Assembly (NCBI RefSeq): GCF_016925615.1
Contig: NZ_CP070499.1
Span: forward strand, 4,464,001 to 4,528,000
Origin: Natronosporangium hydrolyticum
GTDB taxonomy: Bacteria > Actinomycetota > Actinomycetes > Mycobacteriales > Micromonosporaceae
Direction: 5' to 3'
Length of the DNA: 64,000 bases
Within the stretch, counting starts at the first letter, position 1. Each line of letters begins with the position of its first letter. The notes under the pieces are model-generated. The model made no database searches and had not been told where the DNA came from. It was given only the letters and a program-made list of their open reading frames with translations. Shown here piece after piece: positions 16,638-26,052 of the stretch. The position numbers were made by a program, and so were the translations under genes.

Positions 16638-18000
16638 TTAGGCGAAGATGTCGGCCGCGGTCACCGGCAGGACGCCTTCGGAGCGGGTCACCCTGGTGCG
16701 GGCGCAGATGACGTACATGAGGTCGTCTGCCCGCCTCGGCAACGCCAGTGAGCGTTCGACCAGGGTGGGAAGCAGCGCCCGGGCGGAGACCTGCGCGGCC
16801 CACTTCGCCTCCCCGACCGCCACCGCCGTCGGGGGTGTGCCGGCGAGGACCACGGCGTCGATCTCGACGTCACCGCGGGCCCAGTACGAGCCGACCCGCA
16901 GAACCTCATCGCCGAAGTGGCCGGGGATGGCGAGCCGGCGCAGGTGGCACCGGAACGCCTCTTCGAACCGCGGTCCGATGTGGTCGTCGAGCCGGGAGTT
17001 GAGGGTCCGCGCTACCATGTCGCCCATACCACGGTCGATCTCGCCGAGGAACCTCGACAACGGCCCTAGCCAGAAGGCGAGGAAGTTGTCGGCGATCCGG
17101 TAGCCGGTCCGGCCGCTGCGGGCGCCGGCCTGTTCGGTGACCGGCACCACCCGGTCGACCAGCCGCAGTTTCTCCAGGTCGTCGAGGACCCGGGCGACCT
17201 GCCGGCCGGAGCCGATCGCCTGGGCAATCTCGGAGTAGCGGTTCTGGCCGGCCGCGATAGCCCCGAGGACCTGCCGGGCCAACCCACCAGCCACCCCGTC
17301 GGTGGCGAGAATCAACTCACCTTCGGTGCGCAGCGGGGCGCCGGGTTCCCCACACAGCCGCCGGAGGTTCTCCACGGTCGGGGCGGCCTGGTCCCACCAG
17401 GACAGGTAGAGGGGGGTCCCGTCGCAGACCGACCAGGCGCGGGCCCGATCCTCCGGGGACAGGTCGGGCAGCATCAGCGCGGCCTCGTGCGGTCGGAACG
17501 GATGCACGAGCAGCCGCAGGTCGAAACGGCCGTGTAGGGGCGAGCGGTACTCGACCATCGCTTCCATGGACCGGACCGCCGAGCCGCACAACAGCACCTT
17601 CAAGTTGGTTTGGTTGCGCTCTTCTTCCCACACGGCCCGGAGCCGGGTGTCGATCGCCGGGTCGCCGGCTGCCAGTTCTGGGTACTCGTCGAGCACCAGC
17701 AGCAACGGCTCCCGCCGCGGCGAGCGTGGAGATCACGTCTTCCCAGCTGGCGAAGGGCGCCTGGGCCAGCCGGCGGCCCAACTCGATGTCGGCCGGAATC
17801 TTGGTCGCCAGGGTGGCCAACTCCTCGGCGAGCCCCACCCCCCGAGCGGTGTGGAAGACCGCCCGGCGGTCGGCGGCGAACCTGCCGATCAATGCGGTCT
17901 TGCCGACCCGACGCCGCCCCCACACCTGCCCCATCGAGGCGCCCGGCCGCCGCCACCAGCTCTCCAGCGCGGCCAACTCGTTGACTCGGTTGACGAACAC
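16638..18000 (-). pseudogene. AAA ATPase with DUF234 nuclease-like domain, frameshifted
   Basis: Read with one frame change this is a ~450-residue prokaryotic ATPase of the DUF234 family. The N-terminal frame (GTG at 18000 behind GGAGGT) carries NRVNELAALESWW and Walker A GRRRVGKTAL. The second frame carries Walker B LLLVLDEYPEL, a winged-helix stretch (YSEIAQAIGSGRQVARVLDDL) and the C-terminal DUF234 domain with a PD-(D/E)XK-like pattern (EIDAVVL then GEAKW). The frames are offset by one base at a GGG run (17711-17713); removing one G gives AAAGEPLLLVLDEY. It is either a recent pseudogene or a sequencing indel. The family is linked to mobile or defence roles. Confidence 0.8.
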
Positions 18001-18021
18001 AGCACACCTCCGACTCGACAA

Positions 18022-18070
18022 GTGACATGCTAAGTCACTGACATCGCATGTCACTGACATCGCATGTCAC
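18022..18070. promoter_or_regulatory. Three phased dyads upstream of the ATPase gene
   Basis: Two identical copies of the dyad TGACATCGCATGTCA lie at 18039-18053 and 18055-18069. A related dyad, GTGACAT/GTCAC, lies at 18022-18038. The repeat period is 16 bp. This looks like an array of operators between the XRE remnant and the ATPase gene. Confidence 0.6.
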
Positions 18071-18087
18071 TTGGCCACCGAGTGCTG

Positions 18088-18390
18088 TCAGGGTTGCGCC
18101 GCCGCCCTGGGGGAGAAGGTCACCGCCAGCTCAACGCCGAGCGCCCGGGCCAGCCGTTCCAGCACCGGCAAAGTCGGCACCGTGCCCCCGGTCTCGAACC
18201 GGGCCACCGCGGACTGGGTCATCCCCGCCTGCCGGGCCAGCTCAGCCTGACCCCGAAGAGCGCCTGTATCCGCTCGGCGGGGGTTCCCTTCCCGCACGCC
18301 TCATCCAGCAGCGGGTCGAGCGCGGTGTCGAGCAACTGGTCGACCTGGGTGGTGGGGGTCCACAGGGTCTCCAGCCTACGAACGCCACAG
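18088..18390 (-). pseudogene. XRE-family HTH regulator, frameshifted
   Basis: The C-terminal part (QAELARQAGMTQSAVARFET, then VPTLPVLERLARALGVELAV) is a clear XRE helix-turn-helix of the antitoxin type. The natural N-terminal part (LLDEACGKGTPAERIQALF) lies in a different frame, ending at a GGGG run (18251-18254 as CCCC on the plus strand). One base change would join them. The true start is unclear. It lies upstream of the ATPase gene on the same strand, so the two may have formed a regulator/effector pair. Confidence 0.6.
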
Positions 18391-18546
18391 GGCCCAATGA
18401 ATCGACGCGACGACCGGAAGGTAACGGCTGCCTAACCGATGGTGCTCATCGGCGGTTACCGGAATACTGCCACGTGCACTCCCCGCAGGACGCTCCGCAT
18501 AGGCGAAGGCTGGCGACGCTGGCGACGCTCATCTACCGTCTGACGC

Positions 18547-21366
18547 GTGAACCCCAAGCTACGACGGGTGACAATGATCATCCTGGTTGCCGCTGGTATG
18601 GCGGCGGTGACCCTTATGGTGGGTCTGGTCACCAACGCAGCTTCCGAGCAGCAGCTATGGCCGGGTCCGCTGGCCTACGTGCAGCAATATCCTTGGCAGT
18701 CGCTGGCCGGGTTGGCGGTGGTGACCGTCGCCCTCACCTCCCTGTTCGCAGTGCTGTCCGCACCCAGCCCCCGCTCCACCACCGACGCGGCGGCTTCGCC
18801 GTCGCAGCTGGACATCACGGTCTCGGCCATCGCGCCCGTGCTCCGTACCCTGCCCCGCGACCTCCACCTGTTCGCCAATCGAGAGGCCGAGATCGACGAG
18901 CTGGTACGCAGCGTCGAACGGGTCGCCCGCGACGCGACGTTCCCTATCCACACTGTTGGTGGCATGCCCGGGGCCGGGAAGACCGCATTCGCGGTTCACG
19001 TGGGGCATCTCCTGGCTCCCCGTTTCCCCGACGGCCAGCTGTTCCTGGACCTCAATGGCCATACGCCCGGTCGAGCCCCGGTACCACCCAGCGAAGCGCT
19101 CGCGTCCCTGCTCCTCGCCGACGGAGTCCCACCACAGATGATCCCGGCCGGAGACGAGCCGTGGGCAGTGAACGAAGCACGTGCCGCCTTGTGGCGCAGC
19201 CGGATCGCTGACCGGCGAATATTGGTGATTCTCGACAATGCCGCGAGCTTCCAGCAGGTGGAGCACCTGCTGCCCGCTGCGAGCGGATCACTGGTGCTCG
19301 TCACCAGCCGTCGGCGACTGGTCGCCCCTGAGTCCATCACGCTGCAGGTTGGCGAGTTTGAACAGGAGGATGCTGCGGCCTTATTCGTCCGCTTGTCTGC
19401 GCGAAGCGACCTCTCCCCGGAGGCGGTGACGCACCTCGTTGACCTCTGCGGTCGCCTACCGCTGGCGATCTCGTTGTTGGCGGCACGGTTGCGGCATCAT
19501 CCCACCTGGCGCGCGGGCGATCTCGAACGGCGGGTTCGGGCCGCACGCTCCCGCCTGTCGGAGATGCACGCAGGGGAGCGTGGGGTGGCGGCGACCTTCG
19601 ATATGTCGTACCAGGGTCTCCCCGCCGACCGGCAGATTTTCTTCTTACGGTTGAGCGCCTGTCCTGGGCAGGATTTCGACGAATTCGCTGCGGCCGCTCT
19701 AGGGGACGTCGCCTCGGAGGTGGCGCGTCACCACTTAGAGACGCTCTATGAGTACCATCTGCTCGGCGAGAGTGACCATGGCCGGTACCGGTTCCACGAC
19801 CTGGTTCGTGACTATGCTCGCCATGTGGGACGCACCGGCCTGCCCGACGACGACCGGGCCGTCGAACGCCTGGCGACCCACTATGTGCAGGCTCTTGAAC
19901 GGGTCAATCGGTTCGTCGGCCGGAGCGGACGACCCGAATCGAGTCGCGCTGCGGCCCGTGGCACAGCGAGCGCACCGGCCGAGCTTCCCCCTGGCCTGGA
20001 CTCCCACGCTGCGGCGCTCGCTTGGCTGGATGCTGAGCACGCGAACGTACTGGCCTGCTTTGAAGCCTGCCGTACCCGCGAGGACCACCGGTTGGTGGTC
20101 AGTCTGGCAACCGCGATGTCGCCGTATCTCCGTCATGCCGGCCCGTGGGACCGGGCGGCGCACCTCCACCGCACAGCGGCCGCTGCCGCGCGTCAGCTCG
20201 GGAATCAGGCTGCGGAGGCGGAGGCCCTCGCCAACCTCGGCATGATCCATCGCCTGATGGCCGACTACCCGGCTGCGGTCGAGGCGCTGTCACAGGCCCG
20301 TGAGGCTCACCGTGCCGCTGGTGATCTCGCCGGCCAAGGACAGGCTCTCAACCAATTGGGCATCCTGTGGTACCTGACGGCGGACTACCCGCACGCGGAG
20401 GAGGCGCAGCAAGCAGCGCTGGAGTTGTGCCGGGAGGCCGGCGATCTGCTGGGCCAGGCCAACGCTCTGGCCGACCTCGGCATGGTGCTCCGGATGACCG
20501 GGCAGCTCCAACCATCAACCGAAGCGCAAACTGAGGCCCTCGCGCTGTATCGCCGGTTGGGAGATCGCTTCGGGGAGGCCAACGCACTCCGCGCGCTGGG
20601 GGTGGTCTGCCGCCTCACCGGCGCGTACGCCCACGCCGAACGCCATACCGCTGAGGCGCTCGCCATCTACCGCGAGATCGACGACCGGGTTCACCAGGCG
20701 TACGCGCTGAACGAACTAGGGGCGGTCTGTGGACTGAAGGGGGATCTGGCCGCCGCCACCAGTGCTCACGAGGCCGCGCTCGGGCGGTTCCGGGACCTCG
20801 GCGACCGGTTCGGGCAGGCCGAGGCGCTCCGACATCTGGGAGGACTTCGGCGCCTGAAGGATGACCTGGAGGGTGCGGCACAGGCCCAGACGCAGGCTCT
20901 GGAGATCTACGTGGACCTCCACAGCAGAGGCGGTGAGGCAGCGGCGACCTGCGAACTCGGGGCGATCCAGCTGCTCCGCGGCGACCTTTCGGCTGCCGAG
21001 GAGGCGCTGTCCCGAGCGTTAACGACCTTCCGGCAGCTGGGTGACCGCTGCGGTCAGGTGGAGGCGCTCAACCACTATGGCGATCTTGCCCTGGCCGGCG
21101 GAGACCCGTCAACGGGCGCTCGACACTTCGGCCAAGCGATGGACCTGGCACGGGCTACCGCCCTACCGTTGGAGGAGGCCGACGCGCTGCGTGGTCTCGC
21201 TCGATGTGATGCCGCCACTGGATCGCGGGAGGCGGCTACGGAGAACCTCCACGCCGCCGGGCTGACCTATCGCCGCATCGGCGCGGAACACCGGCTGTCG
21301 GAGGTTGGGCGAATCCCCCTACTCGGCGACACCGGCACGGACGAATCGGGGCAGCCCCCACCCTGA
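18547..21366 (+). CDS. Membrane-anchored NB-ARC/TPR (STAND) protein
   Basis: A 939-residue signalling-type NTPase starting at a GTG. Two transmembrane segments (~9-30 and ~50-72) precede an NB-ARC module: Walker A GGMPGAGKT (~138-146), Walker B RRILVILDNA, TSRRR sensor, and LCGRLPLAISLLAARL. Eight or more tetratricopeptide repeats follow (~540-900; units such as AEALANLGMIHRLMADYPAA). STAND proteins switch on ATP-driven oligomerisation after the repeats bind a ligand. The next genes are a small peptide and an FxsB-like radical SAM enzyme. TPR proteins occur in the described FxSxx-COOH systems, so a role in sensing or exporting the peptide is plausible, but this is inference. Confidence 0.85.
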   Translation: MNPKLRRVTMIILVAAGMAAVTLMVGLVTNAASEQQLWPGPLAYVQQYPWQSLAGLAVVTVALTSLFAVLSAPSPRSTTDAAASPSQLDITVSAIAPVLRTLPRDLHLFANREAEIDELVRSVERVARDATFPIHTVGGMPGAGKTAFAVHVGHLLAPRFPDGQLFLDLNGHTPGRAPVPPSEALASLLLADGVPPQMIPAGDEPWAVNEARAALWRSRIADRRILVILDNAASFQQVEHLLPAASGSLVLVTSRRRLVAPESITLQVGEFEQEDAAALFVRLSARSDLSPEAVTHLVDLCGRLPLAISLLAARLRHHPTWRAGDLERRVRAARSRLSEMHAGERGVAATFDMSYQGLPADRQIFFLRLSACPGQDFDEFAAAALGDVASEVARHHLETLYEYHLLGESDHGRYRFHDLVRDYARHVGRTGLPDDDRAVERLATHYVQALERVNRFVGRSGRPESSRAAARGTASAPAELPPGLDSHAAALAWLDAEHANVLACFEACRTREDHRLVVSLATAMSPYLRHAGPWDRAAHLHRTAAAAARQLGNQAAEAEALANLGMIHRLMADYPAAVEALSQAREAHRAAGDLAGQGQALNQLGILWYLTADYPHAEEAQQAALELCREAGDLLGQANALADLGMVLRMTGQLQPSTEAQTEALALYRRLGDRFGEANALRALGVVCRLTGAYAHAERHTAEALAIYREIDDRVHQAYALNELGAVCGLKGDLAAATSAHEAALGRFRDLGDRFGQAEALRHLGGLRRLKDDLEGAAQAQTQALEIYVDLHSRGGEAAATCELGAIQLLRGDLSAAEEALSRALTTFRQLGDRCGQVEALNHYGDLALAGGDPSTGARHFGQAMDLARATALPLEEADALRGLARCDAATGSREAATENLHAAGLTYRRIGAEHRLSEVGRIPLLGDTGTDESGQPPP

Positions 21367-21459
21367 AGGTTGCCATCGACCAGAATGACGCTGTAACCTC
21401 TCACGCACAGCGACCTGCCGATATCGATCGGTAGTAGCACTCGTGGAGAGGGGGCTACG

Positions 21460-21651
21460 GTGACCGCACCCAGCGATGCCACCACCGTCCAATTCGGGTC
21501 GGTCGGGGACGGCTGCGCGATGCCGTGGGCCGCCGGCGGTCCGGTGCTCAGCCACGTCGCGGAGCGAGTGCGGGTACGACTCGCCGCCGAGGCTGCTGCA
21601 GCGGGCGAGAGCTTCGCGGCTCATCCCGCCTCGATCTCCGATGCCGATTGA
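21460..21651 (+). CDS. Candidate RiPP precursor peptide
   Basis: A 63-residue ORF starting at a GTG behind GGAGAGGGGG, 93 bp after the TPR gene. Its last 11 bases overlap the start of the radical SAM gene, the coupling expected for a precursor/maturase pair. It has a helix-prone middle (HVAERVRVRLAAEAAAAGES) and a C-terminal FAAHPASISDAD. Aromatic or imidazole residues that a cyclophane-forming enzyme could use are F12, W23, H32, F52 and H55. It lacks the C-terminal FxSxx signature of known FxsA precursors, so the assignment rests mainly on position and size. Confidence 0.6.
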   Translation: MTAPSDATTVQFGSVGDGCAMPWAAGGPVLSHVAERVRVRLAAEAAAAGESFAAHPASISDAD

Positions 21652-22822
21652 CAGCGAGACGACGGCCCGACCGGAGGCGTTCCACACCTTCATTCTCAAG
21701 GTCGTCAACCGGTGCAACATCGACTGTGACTACTGCTATGTCTTCCACGCCGCCGACACCAACTGGCGGCGCCTGCCGCCACGGATGAGCGCACGGGTCG
21801 CGGAGGCGGCCGCCGCCCGAATCGCAGACCATTCGGCACGGCACGCCTCAACGAAGGTGCATGTGGTCCTGCACGGCGGCGAGCCGCTACTCGCGGGGCG
21901 CGAACACCTCCGGACGGTGCTTCAGACGCTGTCCGCCGGCCTGTCCGGTGTCGATGCGCGGGTCGAGTTGCAGACCAACGGCGTGCTGCTCGACGAGGCG
22001 TGGCTCGACCTCCTGGAGGAGTATCGAGTACGGGTTGGAGTCAGCCTGGACGGCCCACCGGCCGTCAACGACCTACACCGGCTCGACCACCACGGTCGAC
22101 CCACGTGGCAGCAGGCGATCCGTGGGGTAGAACTGCTCGGTACCCGACCCGACCTCTACGCCGGAATCCTGGCCGTGGTCGACCTTGATGCTGACCCGGG
22201 CGAGGTTCACGAATACCTCGCCGGCTTCGACCCGCCGGTGATCGACTTCAACCTGCCCCATGCGACCCACGATCGCCCACCGGAGCGCCGCCGCCCGGCG
22301 GAGGCTGAGTACGGCCAGTGGCTCAGCGCAGCCTTCGACGCGTGGGTGTCGGCCGACCGGTACACACACAGCATCCGCATGTTCGAGGACATCATCGCCC
22401 TCAGCTATGGCGTACGCGGTTCGGTGGATTCCTTGGGACTCACGTGGCCTGGCATGGTGGTCATCGAATCCGATGGGTCGATCGAGGATGTCGACACTCT
22501 CAAGTCGGTGGCCGAGGGTGCCGGCCGGCTGGACATGAGCGTCTTCGCGCACACTTTCGACGACGTGCTCCGGCACCCGGCGGTGGCCCGGCGGCTGGCT
22601 CCGATGGCGATGCTGTCACCCCAGTGTCGCTCGTGTCCGCTGCTCGAGGTGTGCGGAGGCGGGTACCTGCCGCACCGCCACAGCTCCGTCAACGGCTTTC
22701 AGAACCCGTCGGTCTACTGCCAGGATCTTGAGTATCTGATCTGGCACATCTGGCAGCGCCTCGCTGCTGACGTCCCGCGGCCGACGGGGCATCGAGCCCG
22801 GCTTAATCCTCACACCGAATGA
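21641..22822 (+). CDS. FxsB-like radical SAM/SPASM peptide maturase
   Basis: A 393-residue enzyme. The radical SAM cluster is C25-x3-C29-x2-C32 (NRCNIDCDYCYVF), with the SAM-binding HGGEPLL at ~78-84. The SPASM region has Cys329, Cys332, Cys338 (CRSCPLLEVCGGGYLPHR) and Cys360 in NPSVYCQDLE, the layout of FxsB. Members of this clade join aromatic side chains to nearby backbone or side-chain carbons of RiPP precursors. The C-terminal extension reported for many FxsB proteins is absent. The ATG at 21641 overlaps the precursor stop, and a GNAT gene follows after 18 bp. Confidence 0.88.
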   Translation: MPIDSETTARPEAFHTFILKVVNRCNIDCDYCYVFHAADTNWRRLPPRMSARVAEAAAARIADHSARHASTKVHVVLHGGEPLLAGREHLRTVLQTLSAGLSGVDARVELQTNGVLLDEAWLDLLEEYRVRVGVSLDGPPAVNDLHRLDHHGRPTWQQAIRGVELLGTRPDLYAGILAVVDLDADPGEVHEYLAGFDPPVIDFNLPHATHDRPPERRRPAEAEYGQWLSAAFDAWVSADRYTHSIRMFEDIIALSYGVRGSVDSLGLTWPGMVVIESDGSIEDVDTLKSVAEGAGRLDMSVFAHTFDDVLRHPAVARRLAPMAMLSPQCRSCPLLEVCGGGYLPHRHSSVNGFQNPSVYCQDLEYLIWHIWQRLAADVPRPTGHRARLNPHTE

Positions 22823-22840
22823 GCAGAGGAGCGAAGGATC

Positions 22841-23308
22841 GTGGAGAAGCTTGTGATCCGCTCGGCGGAGCCGGAGGACGTCACGGAGGTGGCCGAGCTG
22901 CTCGCGGAGATCGAGCGATACTACGGGGCCACCGAGGTCCAGGCTCTCGCCGAACGGGTCGTTCAGACGGAGCAGGCGCTCTTCGGGTCGACGCCGTTGG
23001 CCAGCGTGCTGCTCGCCGAGGTCGACTCGCAGCTTGTCGGCCTCGCCGCCTACTCCTTCTTGTGGCCGGCCGCAGGCTCCACCCACTCGCTGTATCTCAA
23101 GGAGCTATACGTCCGCCAGTCCTCGCGCCGCAGCGGTGTGGGTGCCCGGCTCATGGCCGAGATCCGGGCCATCGCTGCGGCCCGCCCCGGATGCAGCCGT
23201 GTGGAGTGGACCGCCGACCGGGACAACCCCACCTCGGTCTCCTTTTACCGCGCCCTCGGCTACGAGGAGTTCCACGGCAAGGTCATGTACCGCATTTCCG
23301 GCGAGTAA
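22841..23308 (+). CDS. GNAT N-acetyltransferase
   Basis: A 155-residue GCN5-related acetyltransferase starting at a GTG behind GAAGGA. Motif A is LYVRQSSRRSGVGARLMAEI (Q/R-x-x-G-x-G/A acetyl-CoA loop), and motif B is YRALGYEEF. It is 18 bp downstream of the radical SAM gene in the same direction, so it may acetylate the matured peptide or its immunity target (inference). On its own its substrate cannot be predicted. Confidence 0.88.
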   Translation: MEKLVIRSAEPEDVTEVAELLAEIERYYGATEVQALAERVVQTEQALFGSTPLASVLLAEVDSQLVGLAAYSFLWPAAGSTHSLYLKELYVRQSSRRSGVGARLMAEIRAIAAARPGCSRVEWTADRDNPTSVSFYRALGYEEFHGKVMYRISGE

Positions 23309-23647
23309 GGGCTGGGATTGACCCGATTCGACGGACAGGGTGATGTCCGCCAAACCGGGTCAGGCCCATCGAGAAACCATCGCCACCACACCAGCCCGCG
23401 CGCCGCCGCCCTCTATACCGCCGCTCTCGCCCGCGTCTACACACCCTCGGCGAACCCGATCACGCCCACCTCCTCGCTCGCCGAGCCGCCCGACACGCCA
23501 CCACTTCCGGCTCCGCCCACGCCACGACCGTGCTCAGACACTTCCAAGGGCTGTCGGCGACGCGTACAGGACCTACCCACGGCCCTATACTGCAGGCACA
23601 CTTGTTGTGATAACGCTTGTCCATGTGGTGACAGGAGGTGACAGACC
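23309..23647. other. Intergenic region before the VapBC45-like pair
   Basis: This 339-bp gap has no gene I can support; short open frames here lack conserved-looking sequence. A TATACT hexamer at 23586-23591 could be the -10 of the toxin-antitoxin operon, whose AGGAGGTGAC ribosome binding site is at ~23633-23642. Confidence 0.4.
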
Positions 23648-24346
23648 ATGGCAGGATCCGCCCACGCGGCAGCTGTCCCCTCTCTGCTTGATCCCCGACA
23701 ACAGTGGGGCCTGCTGAACCTCTCCCAGGCCGGTCGCTATCTGCGCATCGCCAAACGGACATTTCATCGTTGGGCACGAGGTTATCCCCATGGTCGCCCG
23801 CTACTACACGTACGTGAACCGGACGGCGACCATCTCCCCGTAACGTTCGTATCGTTGACCGAGGCTCACGTCCTTGATGGCCTCCGGGAGGCAGGAGTCC
23901 GGCCGGACAAGATCCGCCCGGCCCTGGACGTGCTAGCGCGGGAGTTCGGCCACGAATATGTGCTCATTGCTCCGGAACTCGCCACCGACGGCGTCGAAGT
24001 GCTGTGGGACTTCTCCCGCAGTCGAGCTGGCAGCGGTCTGATTGTCGCCGAAAGCGGCCAACATGTGTTTAGAGAGATCGTAGACGACTATCTCTACTAT
24101 GTTCACCGCGACGACCACGGCGCTCCGGAGGTCCTTGAGCTGAGGCACTGGCACCCAGCGAAGGTGATCGTGGATGTGCGGCGGTCGTTCGGGCAACCAA
24201 TCTTCGCCACTTCAGGAGTGCGCGTGGCGGACGTGGCGGGAATGCTGAAGGCAGGTGATGACGCTGAGATCGTCGCCGACGAGTTCGGCATCGGAATCGA
24301 AGATGTCCGAACCGCCGCCCGCCTCCTCCTGGGCCGAGCCACCTGA
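23648..24346 (+). CDS. DUF433-type antitoxin (VapB45-like)
   Basis: A 232-residue DNA-binding antitoxin. An N-terminal helix-turn-helix (NLSQAGRYLRIAKRTFHRWA) is followed by a central domain and a C-terminal DUF433-like helical part (VADEFGIGIEDVRTAARLL). The length and the overlapping PIN-like partner match the VapBC45 arrangement of Mycobacterium tuberculosis (Rv2018/Rv2019). Strong ribosome binding site AGGAGGTGACAGACC. It overlaps the toxin start by 44 bases and probably represses its own operon. Confidence 0.8.
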   Translation: MAGSAHAAAVPSLLDPRQQWGLLNLSQAGRYLRIAKRTFHRWARGYPHGRPLLHVREPDGDHLPVTFVSLTEAHVLDGLREAGVRPDKIRPALDVLAREFGHEYVLIAPELATDGVEVLWDFSRSRAGSGLIVAESGQHVFREIVDDYLYYVHRDDHGAPEVLELRHWHPAKVIVDVRRSFGQPIFATSGVRVADVAGMLKAGDDAEIVADEFGIGIEDVRTAARLLLGRAT

Positions 24347-24833
24347 ATTCTACCTCGACGAAAACCTGGCCGGACGGACTGTCCGCCGCTTCATTACCGA
24401 ACTCGGGTATAGAGTTCACACTGGAGCTTCGGTCTTCAGTAAGGCTGTTCTCGACAAGAGCCTGTCGGACAATGACTGGCTACCAATTGCCGGCAGAAAG
24501 GGATGGGTGGTGATTTGCCGAGATCAACACATCCTTTTGCGTGACGGGGAGCTGAAAGCCTACCTGGACGCAAAGGTGCACCTGTTCCTTTTACCGGGCG
24601 ACATTGCTCGTGCCCAGATTATCGAACTTCTGCAGGTAAACCTGCGGGAGATGTGTACACTCGCTGCGGCGAGAATCCCGAACGTCTACTGGTTGACGAG
24701 ACACGGCATCGAAACGTACGAAGACAAGTCTTCACGCCGTAGGCGCAGCAATACTCGCAAGAACCCTGTCCCGCGGCAGCGAGAACGCGTGTCACCGAGC
24801 CAGCGAAGCGCGCGGTCACGAAAGAGCGGCTGA
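24303..24833 (+). CDS. PIN-like toxin (VapC45-like)
   Basis: A 176-residue PIN-like ribonuclease candidate. The N terminus has the acidic FYLDENLAG motif, and the middle has LSDNDWLPIAGRKGWVVICRDQHI, both typical of the DUF5615/VapC45 group. The last ~40 residues are very rich in Arg, Lys and Ser and may bind RNA. The ATG at 24303 lies inside the antitoxin gene. Confidence 0.78.
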   Translation: MSEPPPASSWAEPPEFYLDENLAGRTVRRFITELGYRVHTGASVFSKAVLDKSLSDNDWLPIAGRKGWVVICRDQHILLRDGELKAYLDAKVHLFLLPGDIARAQIIELLQVNLREMCTLAAARIPNVYWLTRHGIETYEDKSSRRRRSNTRKNPVPRQRERVSPSQRSARSRKSG

Positions 24834-25113
24834 CGACAGGGTCGTTGTAACCAGCATCCCGTGCTTCAGGATGCCGAGGACGTTGACTGGGTGGAGGATC
24901 GAGCGGCGTCTCGTACGGGCGCCCGGTGCGGATAGCCTCGTCCATGGCGTCGGAACGCTCCGCCAGTTCAACCACCCGGACGCGGTGCTGCGCTGCCCCT
25001 CCCCCGGCCGGCGGATCGCGACTACGATCACTGGGTAGGCAGCGTTGGGCGATCCGTGGTCAGCACAGACCGGTCGGCTACGCTCAGGAAAACCGTTCTG
25101 CTGGAGAAGGCTG
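24834..25113. other. Intergenic region, nothing recognised
   Basis: A 280-bp gap. A minus-strand open frame runs through it (RPYETPLDPPPSQRPRHPEA and onward), but it lacks a convincing ribosome binding site and extends antisense into the toxin gene. I do not call it. It could be decayed coding sequence. Confidence 0.35.
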
Positions 25114-25431
25114 ATGCACCAACAGCGCGTGGAGACCCCTCGGGGTGACCGGGTCACCGTCGCACCCGTCGGCCCACTGGACCTGGCGACCTCGCCGTCC
25201 CTGGCGGAGGCGCTAGCTGCGGCGCAGGCGCCGGGGGTGGTGGAGATCGTCGTCGACCTCACGGAGGTCGACTTTCTGGATTCGGCAGGCATCGCGGCGC
25301 TGATCCGGGGCAGCCGCGAGCTGGCCAAGGCCGGTTGCCCGCTCTATCTGTGCGGCGCCAACGGGTCGGCGGCCAAGGTGTTGGAGATCACCAACGTCAC
25401 CCAGGATGTGCTGCCGCCGCCGCCCGATTGA
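25114..25431 (+). CDS. STAS-domain anti-sigma factor antagonist
   Basis: A 105-residue single STAS domain. VDLTEVDFLDSAGIAALI contains the conserved Asp-Ser pair whose Ser is phosphorylated by RsbW/SpoIIAB-type kinases; the unphosphorylated form binds the anti-sigma factor and frees sigma. Start ATG behind GGAGAAGG. No sigma or anti-sigma gene is adjacent, so its partner is elsewhere. Ends with four consecutive prolines. Confidence 0.9.
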   Translation: MHQQRVETPRGDRVTVAPVGPLDLATSPSLAEALAAAQAPGVVEIVVDLTEVDFLDSAGIAALIRGSRELAKAGCPLYLCGANGSAAKVLEITNVTQDVLPPPPD

Positions 25432-25443
25432 CCCGCGCGCGGA

Positions 25444-26052
25444 TCAGCGCGAGTAGAACTCCACCACCAGTTGGGTGTCGCAGATGATCGGCACCTCGCT
25501 GCGCGCCGCGTCGCGCAGGACGGTGGTGCGCAGCTCCGGCAGGTTCGCCGACAGGTACGCCACCGGACGCTCCGGGGCGTGCGCCCCCGCCGCCGCGGCG
25601 AGGAAGGGGTTCTTCGCCCGGCTGGCCGGGACGATCTCTACGACGTCGCCGGGGCGCACCCGGTAGGACGGCTTGTCCACCCGCCGGCCGTTGACCATGA
25701 CGTGGCGGTGGGTGACGGTCTGCCGCGCCTGGTAGATGGTCCGGGCGAGCCCGGAGCGCAGCACGGTGGCGTCGAGCCGGCGCTCCAGCAGCGCCACCAG
25801 GTTCTCGCCGGTGGGCCCGGGGCGCCGAGCCGCCTCGGCGAAGGTGCGGCGTAGCTGGCCTTCGCTGAGGTCGTACTGGTGGCGCAGCCGCTGCTTCTCC
25901 AGCAGCCGCGTCGCGTAGTCGCTGGACTTCTGCCGCCGCCGCCCGTGCACCCCGGGTGGGAAGGGGCGGCGTTCGAAGTAGCGGACGCACTTGGGCGTCA
26001 GCGGGATGCCGAGCCGTCGCGACAGCTTGGCCTTCGGTCGGGATTGATTCAC
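25444..26052 (-). CDS. rpsD: Ribosomal protein S4
   Basis: A 202-residue small-subunit protein that nucleates 30S assembly. The N terminus ([20 protein letters not shown]) and the RNA-binding S4 domain ([32 protein letters not shown]) are clear. It lacks the four-Cys zinc motif of some S4 proteins (only one N-terminal Cys), matching the zinc-free actinobacterial form. GTG start behind AGGAGTG. Its promoter region contains an iron box, unusual for a ribosomal protein; a second S4 gene elsewhere is possible. Confidence 0.93.

Follow-up and report, generated by a model that had tools for sequence, protein, structure and literature searches.

Structure of the locus

Four genes in a 64,000-nucleotide stretch of the Natronosporangium hydrolyticum genome (contig NZ_CP070499.1, positions 4,464,001 to 4,528,000; hereafter, the window, with positions counted from its first nucleotide) very probably make up an haaT-haaA-haaB-haaN operon, that is, a cluster for a triceptide, a ribosomally synthesized and post-translationally modified peptide (RiPP) with a three-residue cyclophane, in which the maturase HaaB is predicted, by analogy with published enzymes, to form a bond between His55 (C2) and Ala57 (beta-carbon). 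The genes are consecutive open reading frames (ORFs) of the + strand, and the tight, co-directional arrangement described in the first-pass annotation was confirmed: haaT and haaA are 93 bp apart, haaA and haaB overlap by 11 bp, and haaN follows haaB after 18 bp. The purine-rich GGAGAGGGGG ends 5 nt upstream of the GTG codon of haaA. The features are as follows:

18547..21366, + strand: haaT, 939 residues, with two N-terminal transmembrane segments, an NB-ARC ATPase domain and C-terminal TPR repeats (1510 bits on the NCBIfam model NF041717; matches to the NB-ARC and TPR_12 hidden Markov models, HMMs)
18565..18759, + strand: transmembrane hairpin of HaaT, approximately residues 7-71, with the inter-helix loop GLVTN..S....WP (hydropathy and conservation)
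18961..18984, + strand: Walker A motif GMPGAGKT of HaaT, residues 139-146 (sequence reading and conservation among HaaT proteins)
21460..21651, + strand: haaA, precursor peptide of 63 residues with a GTG start (32.1 bits, E 1e-7 on NF041708; place and motif kept in 25 of 25 loci)
21544..21591, + strand: leader motif VLSHVAERVRVRLAAE of HaaA, residues 29-44, a probable recognition helix for the maturase (conserved; helix and recognition role predicted)
21622..21633, + strand: core motif H55-P56-A57-S58 of HaaA, with a predicted ring joining C2 of the His to the Ala beta-carbon (motif H-x-A-S shared by all 25 precursors; bond type as published for HaaB and ScaB)
21641..22822, + strand: haaB, FxsB-family radical S-adenosylmethionine (SAM)/SPASM maturase of 393 residues (420 bits on TIGR04269; haaB clade, support 100/98; ChlB 9gm3, E 1.4e-74)
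22841..23308, + strand: haaN, GNAT acetyltransferase of 155 residues (230.7 bits on NF041716)

A short-tail version of the Haa cluster

The proposal that these genes encode a RiPP pathway is supported both by the HMM identities of their products and by the conservation of the gene set. HaaT passes the cut-off of its NCBIfam model (1125 bits; residues 6-888 aligned), and its N-terminal membrane anchor and NB-ARC domain, noticed in the first-pass annotation, are borne out by two hydrophobic segments and an HMM match, respectively. HaaB passes the cut-off of the FxsB-family model (370 bits), and HaaN is identified as a GNAT. Furthermore, the annotated plasmid NZ_CP108236.1 of Streptomyces sp. NBC_00080 carries haaT-haaA-FxsB-haaN in the identical order. 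Since NCBIfam already models HaaA, HaaT and HaaN and the same gene order is annotated on a plasmid, the system is one that already has a name, and the suggestion of a wholly new RiPP system is ruled out; the traits then considered unusual, namely the membrane NB-ARC protein, the GNAT and the absent FxSxx end, are ordinary for the Haa type. The chemistry is on record as well: in the review PMC11002830, both HaaB and ScaB are described as forming a bond between C2 of His and the beta-carbon of Ala.

The window and the plasmid have in common the order of the four genes, homologous haaT, haaB and haaN (the proteins being 53%, 60% and 65% identical, respectively) and a precursor that ends in H-x-A-S, whereas they differ in the tail of the precursor (ISDAD in the window, LIWTWPL on the plasmid) and in the residue x, which is Pro in the window and Gln on the plasmid. 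The ScaB-type maturation of His-Ala-Ala found by SPECO involves, according to the same review, the His C2-Ala C-beta radical SAM bond that is predicted here, the likeness being one of described chemistry. By HMM, the window HaaB also falls into the radical SAM/SPASM cyclophane-forming group of the triceptide maturases YhhB and XyeB, albeit with scores short of the curated cut-offs (377 bits against 445 for YhhB and 171 against 450 for XyeB). By record, HaaB proteins are found in Catenuloplanes nepalensis (P0133), Dactylosporangium roseum (P0159) and Streptomyces sp. NBC_01232 (P0185). Altogether, the locus is a short-tail, probably early-branching version of the Haa triceptide cluster.

The precursor peptide

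Precursors were compared between the window and 24 further loci with matches to haaT, haaB and haaN, 23 of them uninterrupted and one, L080, with haaT and haaB each in two pieces. They were read from the loci themselves because a search of a large protein set with the window precursor returned, among 5 candidates, only the query. A rule of position (an ORF of at least 30 residues on the same strand, with its end no more than 60 bp upstream or 40 bp downstream of where the HaaB match starts) is sufficient to find an ORF with H-x-A-S within its last 25 residues in 24 of the 25 loci; the precursor of L160 was recovered by the motif only, having escaped the rule because its frame is open over more than 700 bp. 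None of the 15 other ORFs that obey the rule contains H-x-A-S. A lack of conservation of the small ORF beside close homologues of the enzyme had been named as grounds for refutation; both its place and its motif are kept in all 25 loci, and the 63-residue ORF is likely to be the precursor.

All 25 distinct precursors in the alignment share VL, one R, one E and H.AS. The residue x is Ala in 16 precursors, Pro in 3, and Ser, Gln and His in 2 each, these being natural variants at the middle position of the ring. The window precursor ends in HPASISDAD, with HPAS at residues 55-58, which, combined with the chemistry of HaaB and ScaB, leads to the predicted ring His55-Pro56-Ala57. Two kinds of tail can be distinguished. 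The long tail, with 10 residues after His that mostly resemble LIWPWPL, is found in 19 precursors (18 genomes of the genus of genome G338 and the plasmid); the short tail, with 6-8 residues after His and no Trp, is found in the other 6 (window, L079, L080, L081, L082 and L084). The three long-tail precursors run against NF041708 score 98-115 bits. The model misses all six short-tail ones, with 32.1 bits for the window, 23.1-31.8 bits for three and no match at E <=1 for two, so that annotation may overlook precursors of this kind. They can be sought by the invariant H-x-A-S and the leader motif.

Position of the maturase

HaaB carries the signatures CNIDCDYC, CRSCPLLEVCGGG and NPSVYCQDL. The solved structure nearest to it by sequence in the PDB is that of ChlB (9gm3), a "multiple cyclophane synthase" according to the title of a 2025 paper in the reference list of PMC12636437. 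In a midpoint-rooted tree of FxsB-family enzymes, made up of 24 haaB and 31 others and excluding the interrupted gene of L080, haaB forms a single group (support 100/98) apart from the other 31. The earlier placement of the enzyme among the cyclophane formers is supported. Within the group, the window HaaB branches off first, as sister to the remaining 23 (99/94), and the short-tail enzymes of L079, L081, L082 and L084 also fall outside the 19 long-tail ones (100/98). Because the short-tail enzymes branch outside the long-tail group, the short tail may be ancestral, and this branch suggests that HxAS is the old part of the core, to which the LIWPWPL-like tail was perhaps added later.

A HaaB search of 295 genomes of G338's genus gave 18 matches of at least 477 bits (the next scored 353 bits), each of them accompanied by haaT, haaA and haaN; of the 299 further genomes searched in Micromonosporaceae, the family of the window, 4 hold a HaaB of at least 446 bits, again always with the three partners. 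In addition, G246 (locus L080) carries an interrupted haa cluster, and G070 a HaaB-type match of 398 bits with no haaT or haaN match nearby. The two congeners G001 and G002 gave no HaaB match at 1e-104. The G070 enzyme (L228 6991-8385), a member of the FxsB family, is the nearest outgroup to haaB; it is preceded by an ORF of 85 residues with a leader of the same kind, SVVLTEAVRRARRRLAAE, and a different end, GSYTSRPDHCTAP, with no haaT or haaN match, and is possibly the maturase of a sister triceptide with another core.

A putative pathway and what speaks against it

The following sequence of events can be envisaged. HaaB would grip the precursor through the conserved leader stretch VL..V..RV..RL.AE and, as in its published relatives, would close the His55-Ala57 bond (C2 to beta-carbon) within the HPAS end. 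A protease encoded elsewhere would then release a short C-terminal peptide, and HaaN would acetylate the newly freed alpha-amine; this site is proposed because there is no conserved Lys near the core: just 3 of the 25 precursors have one in the tail or among the 12 residues preceding His. HaaT, held in the membrane by its two helices and the conserved loop, may serve as an ATP-driven switch that responds to the product. We infer both what HaaN acetylates and what HaaT senses; a search of the open-access literature, which left subscription papers mostly outside, found no paper on the function of HaaT or HaaN or on short-tail HaaA.

Several observations weigh against this picture. Neither HaaN (230.7 bits, cut-off 250) nor HaaA (cut-off 55) reaches the threshold of its NCBIfam model. 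The HaaN cut-off is passed by none of the 300 genomes of the family sample, yet four of them besides the window hold uninterrupted haaT, haaA, haaB and haaN; the shortfall of HaaA is attributed to the model having been fitted to long tails and is taken to mark the short-tail subclass. A Pro within the predicted ring is found in only the three precursors mentioned above, and we met no report that it is tolerated. Among the neighbour clusters shared by at least 3 of the 25 loci, no protease or transporter/exporter family was seen in the few kb fetched per locus, with ORFs chosen by the GC content of third codon positions and clusters named by eye. A fold search places HaaN nearest to polyamine and thialysine acetyltransferases, with N-terminal and aminoglycoside acetyltransferases also matching; the nearest folds thus act on small amines, the fold itself showing no function. 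As to early branching, in the HaaN tree the window groups with L079-L083 and L085 (90/92), with L084 apart, and is not the first to branch, and the end branches of the window (0.55) and of L084 (0.77) in the HaaB tree are long.

The membrane anchor of HaaT

All 24 HaaT have the same residues G, L, V, T, N, S, W and P in the loop that separates the two N-terminal hydrophobic segments, and the 19-residue Kyte-Doolittle means of these segments exceed 1.6 in all five HaaT, of the 24, for which they were computed. Ten HaaT relatives from a scan of genome contigs align from residue 90 or later, and 14 of 15 relatives in a second list from residue 70 or later, whereas a few matches in a phylum sample start at positions 40-61 of the HaaT profile. 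Because the relatives mostly align only downstream of it, the anchor looks special to HaaT, though not firmly so. In the phylum sample, the window alone (1 of 396) scores above the cut-off in the HaaT profile search (at most 2 candidates being scored per genome), and by tblastn the ten loci from the contig scan show no HaaA, HaaB or HaaN match.

Usual transport channels need more than two helices, and most NB-ARC/TPR proteins whose function is known are regulators. Both points favor a switch over a role of HaaT in export or in tethering biosynthesis to the membrane, which we consider unlikely, albeit less so than the other alternatives discussed below; such a role would accord with the lack of a recurring transporter gene beside the cluster and with the conservation of the hairpin loop in all 24 proteins.

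HaaN without the maturase

In several lineages, haaN occurs without an intact haaB. Such HaaN proteins (L083, L085, L167, L179 and L184) are nested in the HaaN tree among those borne by clusters. L083 retains no more than the hairpin of HaaT, and L167 no more than the C-terminal half of HaaB. In L080, transposase-like ORFs lie inside haaT and haaB, with haaN (and haaA) intact. These observations, along with the presence of haaN beside 22 of 22 close haaB relatives, would fit a role of HaaN in self-protection, whereby it inactivates the mature cyclophane peptide by acetylation, or protects a target inside the cell, and so can be worth keeping even without the synthase. However, the haaN of L184 is itself frameshifted, and the match in L179 lacks the first residues; L085 shows no trace of other haa genes and may therefore represent transfer rather than loss; and haaN, being the short last gene, is the one that chance decay would most often spare. 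Pairwise ratios of nonsynonymous to synonymous substitution rates of the haaN orphans are low (0.10-0.22), but those of the frameshifted L184 (0.20) and of the HaaB remnant in L167 (0.25) are equally low. Besides, most loci in the comparison were selected by haaN, and only those of the two HaaB searches by haaB. Self-protection by HaaN appears unlikely. The orphans, nevertheless, are the place to ask whether acetylation protects the producer.

A still more speculative and rather improbable extension would have HaaN confer immunity to a peptide that acts inside the cell as a weapon or signal; it would cap the His-Ala cyclophane, outlive the lost synthase and move between RiPP classes, with the membrane-tethered HaaT gating the peptide and the window representing an ancestral short-tail form that predates the tryptophan tail of the Streptomyces-type clusters.

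A gene for a PCMT-like methyltransferase, a lantibiotic dehydratase or a LanC-like protein is found in 9 of 50 loci holding HaaN-type GNATs (L085, L087, L089, L097, L163, L166, L171, L172 and L175), and in none of the ten loci of HaaT relatives; the nine correspond to fewer independent events, since five of them (L163-L175) are closely related to one another. One haaN of the haa group adjoins lantibiotic dehydratase and cyclase genes. The weaker HaaN relatives L087-L098 (44-50% identical) mostly stand, by eye, directly after a gene for a helix-turn-helix (HTH) protein of 420-510 residues and, on this inspection, seem to be a separate HTH-GNAT pair family.

Other readings of the ring and of the cluster

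In the window precursor, F52-A53-A54 lies immediately N-terminal to H55-P56-A57 (21613-21630), and the maturase MscB, according to PMC11002830, uses Phe together with a Ser two residues further on. A second ring made by HaaB on Phe52-Ala53-Ala54, which would yield a fused FAAHPA product, is nonetheless quite improbable, as none of the 24 other precursors has Phe at that position.

That the cluster is instead an FxSxx-COOH (Fxs) system with HaaA as an aberrant FxsA has next to no probability: even though HaaB passes the FxsB model, Fxs systems are represented in NCBIfam by a TPR model, and the window shares with them an FxsB-family maturase and a TPR partner, it differs in the added GNAT and, in the three respects that rule this reading out, in the peptide end (HPASISDAD rather than FxSxx), in the TPR model (89.7 bits on NF040586, with a cut-off of 300, versus 1510 on the HaaT model) and in the enzyme group, haaB being separate from the 31 other FxsB-family enzymes.

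Surroundings of the cluster

The GC content is 0.63-0.69 over positions 17000-26000 of the window, compared to 0.70-0.74 on either side, as in an acquired island. On the Streptomyces plasmid, SAVED, ThiF-type and DncV-like genes, of the type of cyclic-oligonucleotide-based anti-phage signaling systems (CBASS), lie approximately 8-12 kb upstream of haaT (L099 351-4245), which may hint at a defence island. PADLOC returned nothing beyond generic TPR, viperin-like and weak effector matches. Upstream of haaT, a 16-bp unit is repeated 3.1 times (18023-18071), and an ATPase_2/DUF234 gene on the - strand (16638-18060) is split across two frames, either as a pseudogene or through a sequencing error. 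Just downstream of the cluster, an HTH_66-DUF433 ORF overlaps a PIN_10 ORF (23648-24833, + strand), likely a toxin-antitoxin-type pair.

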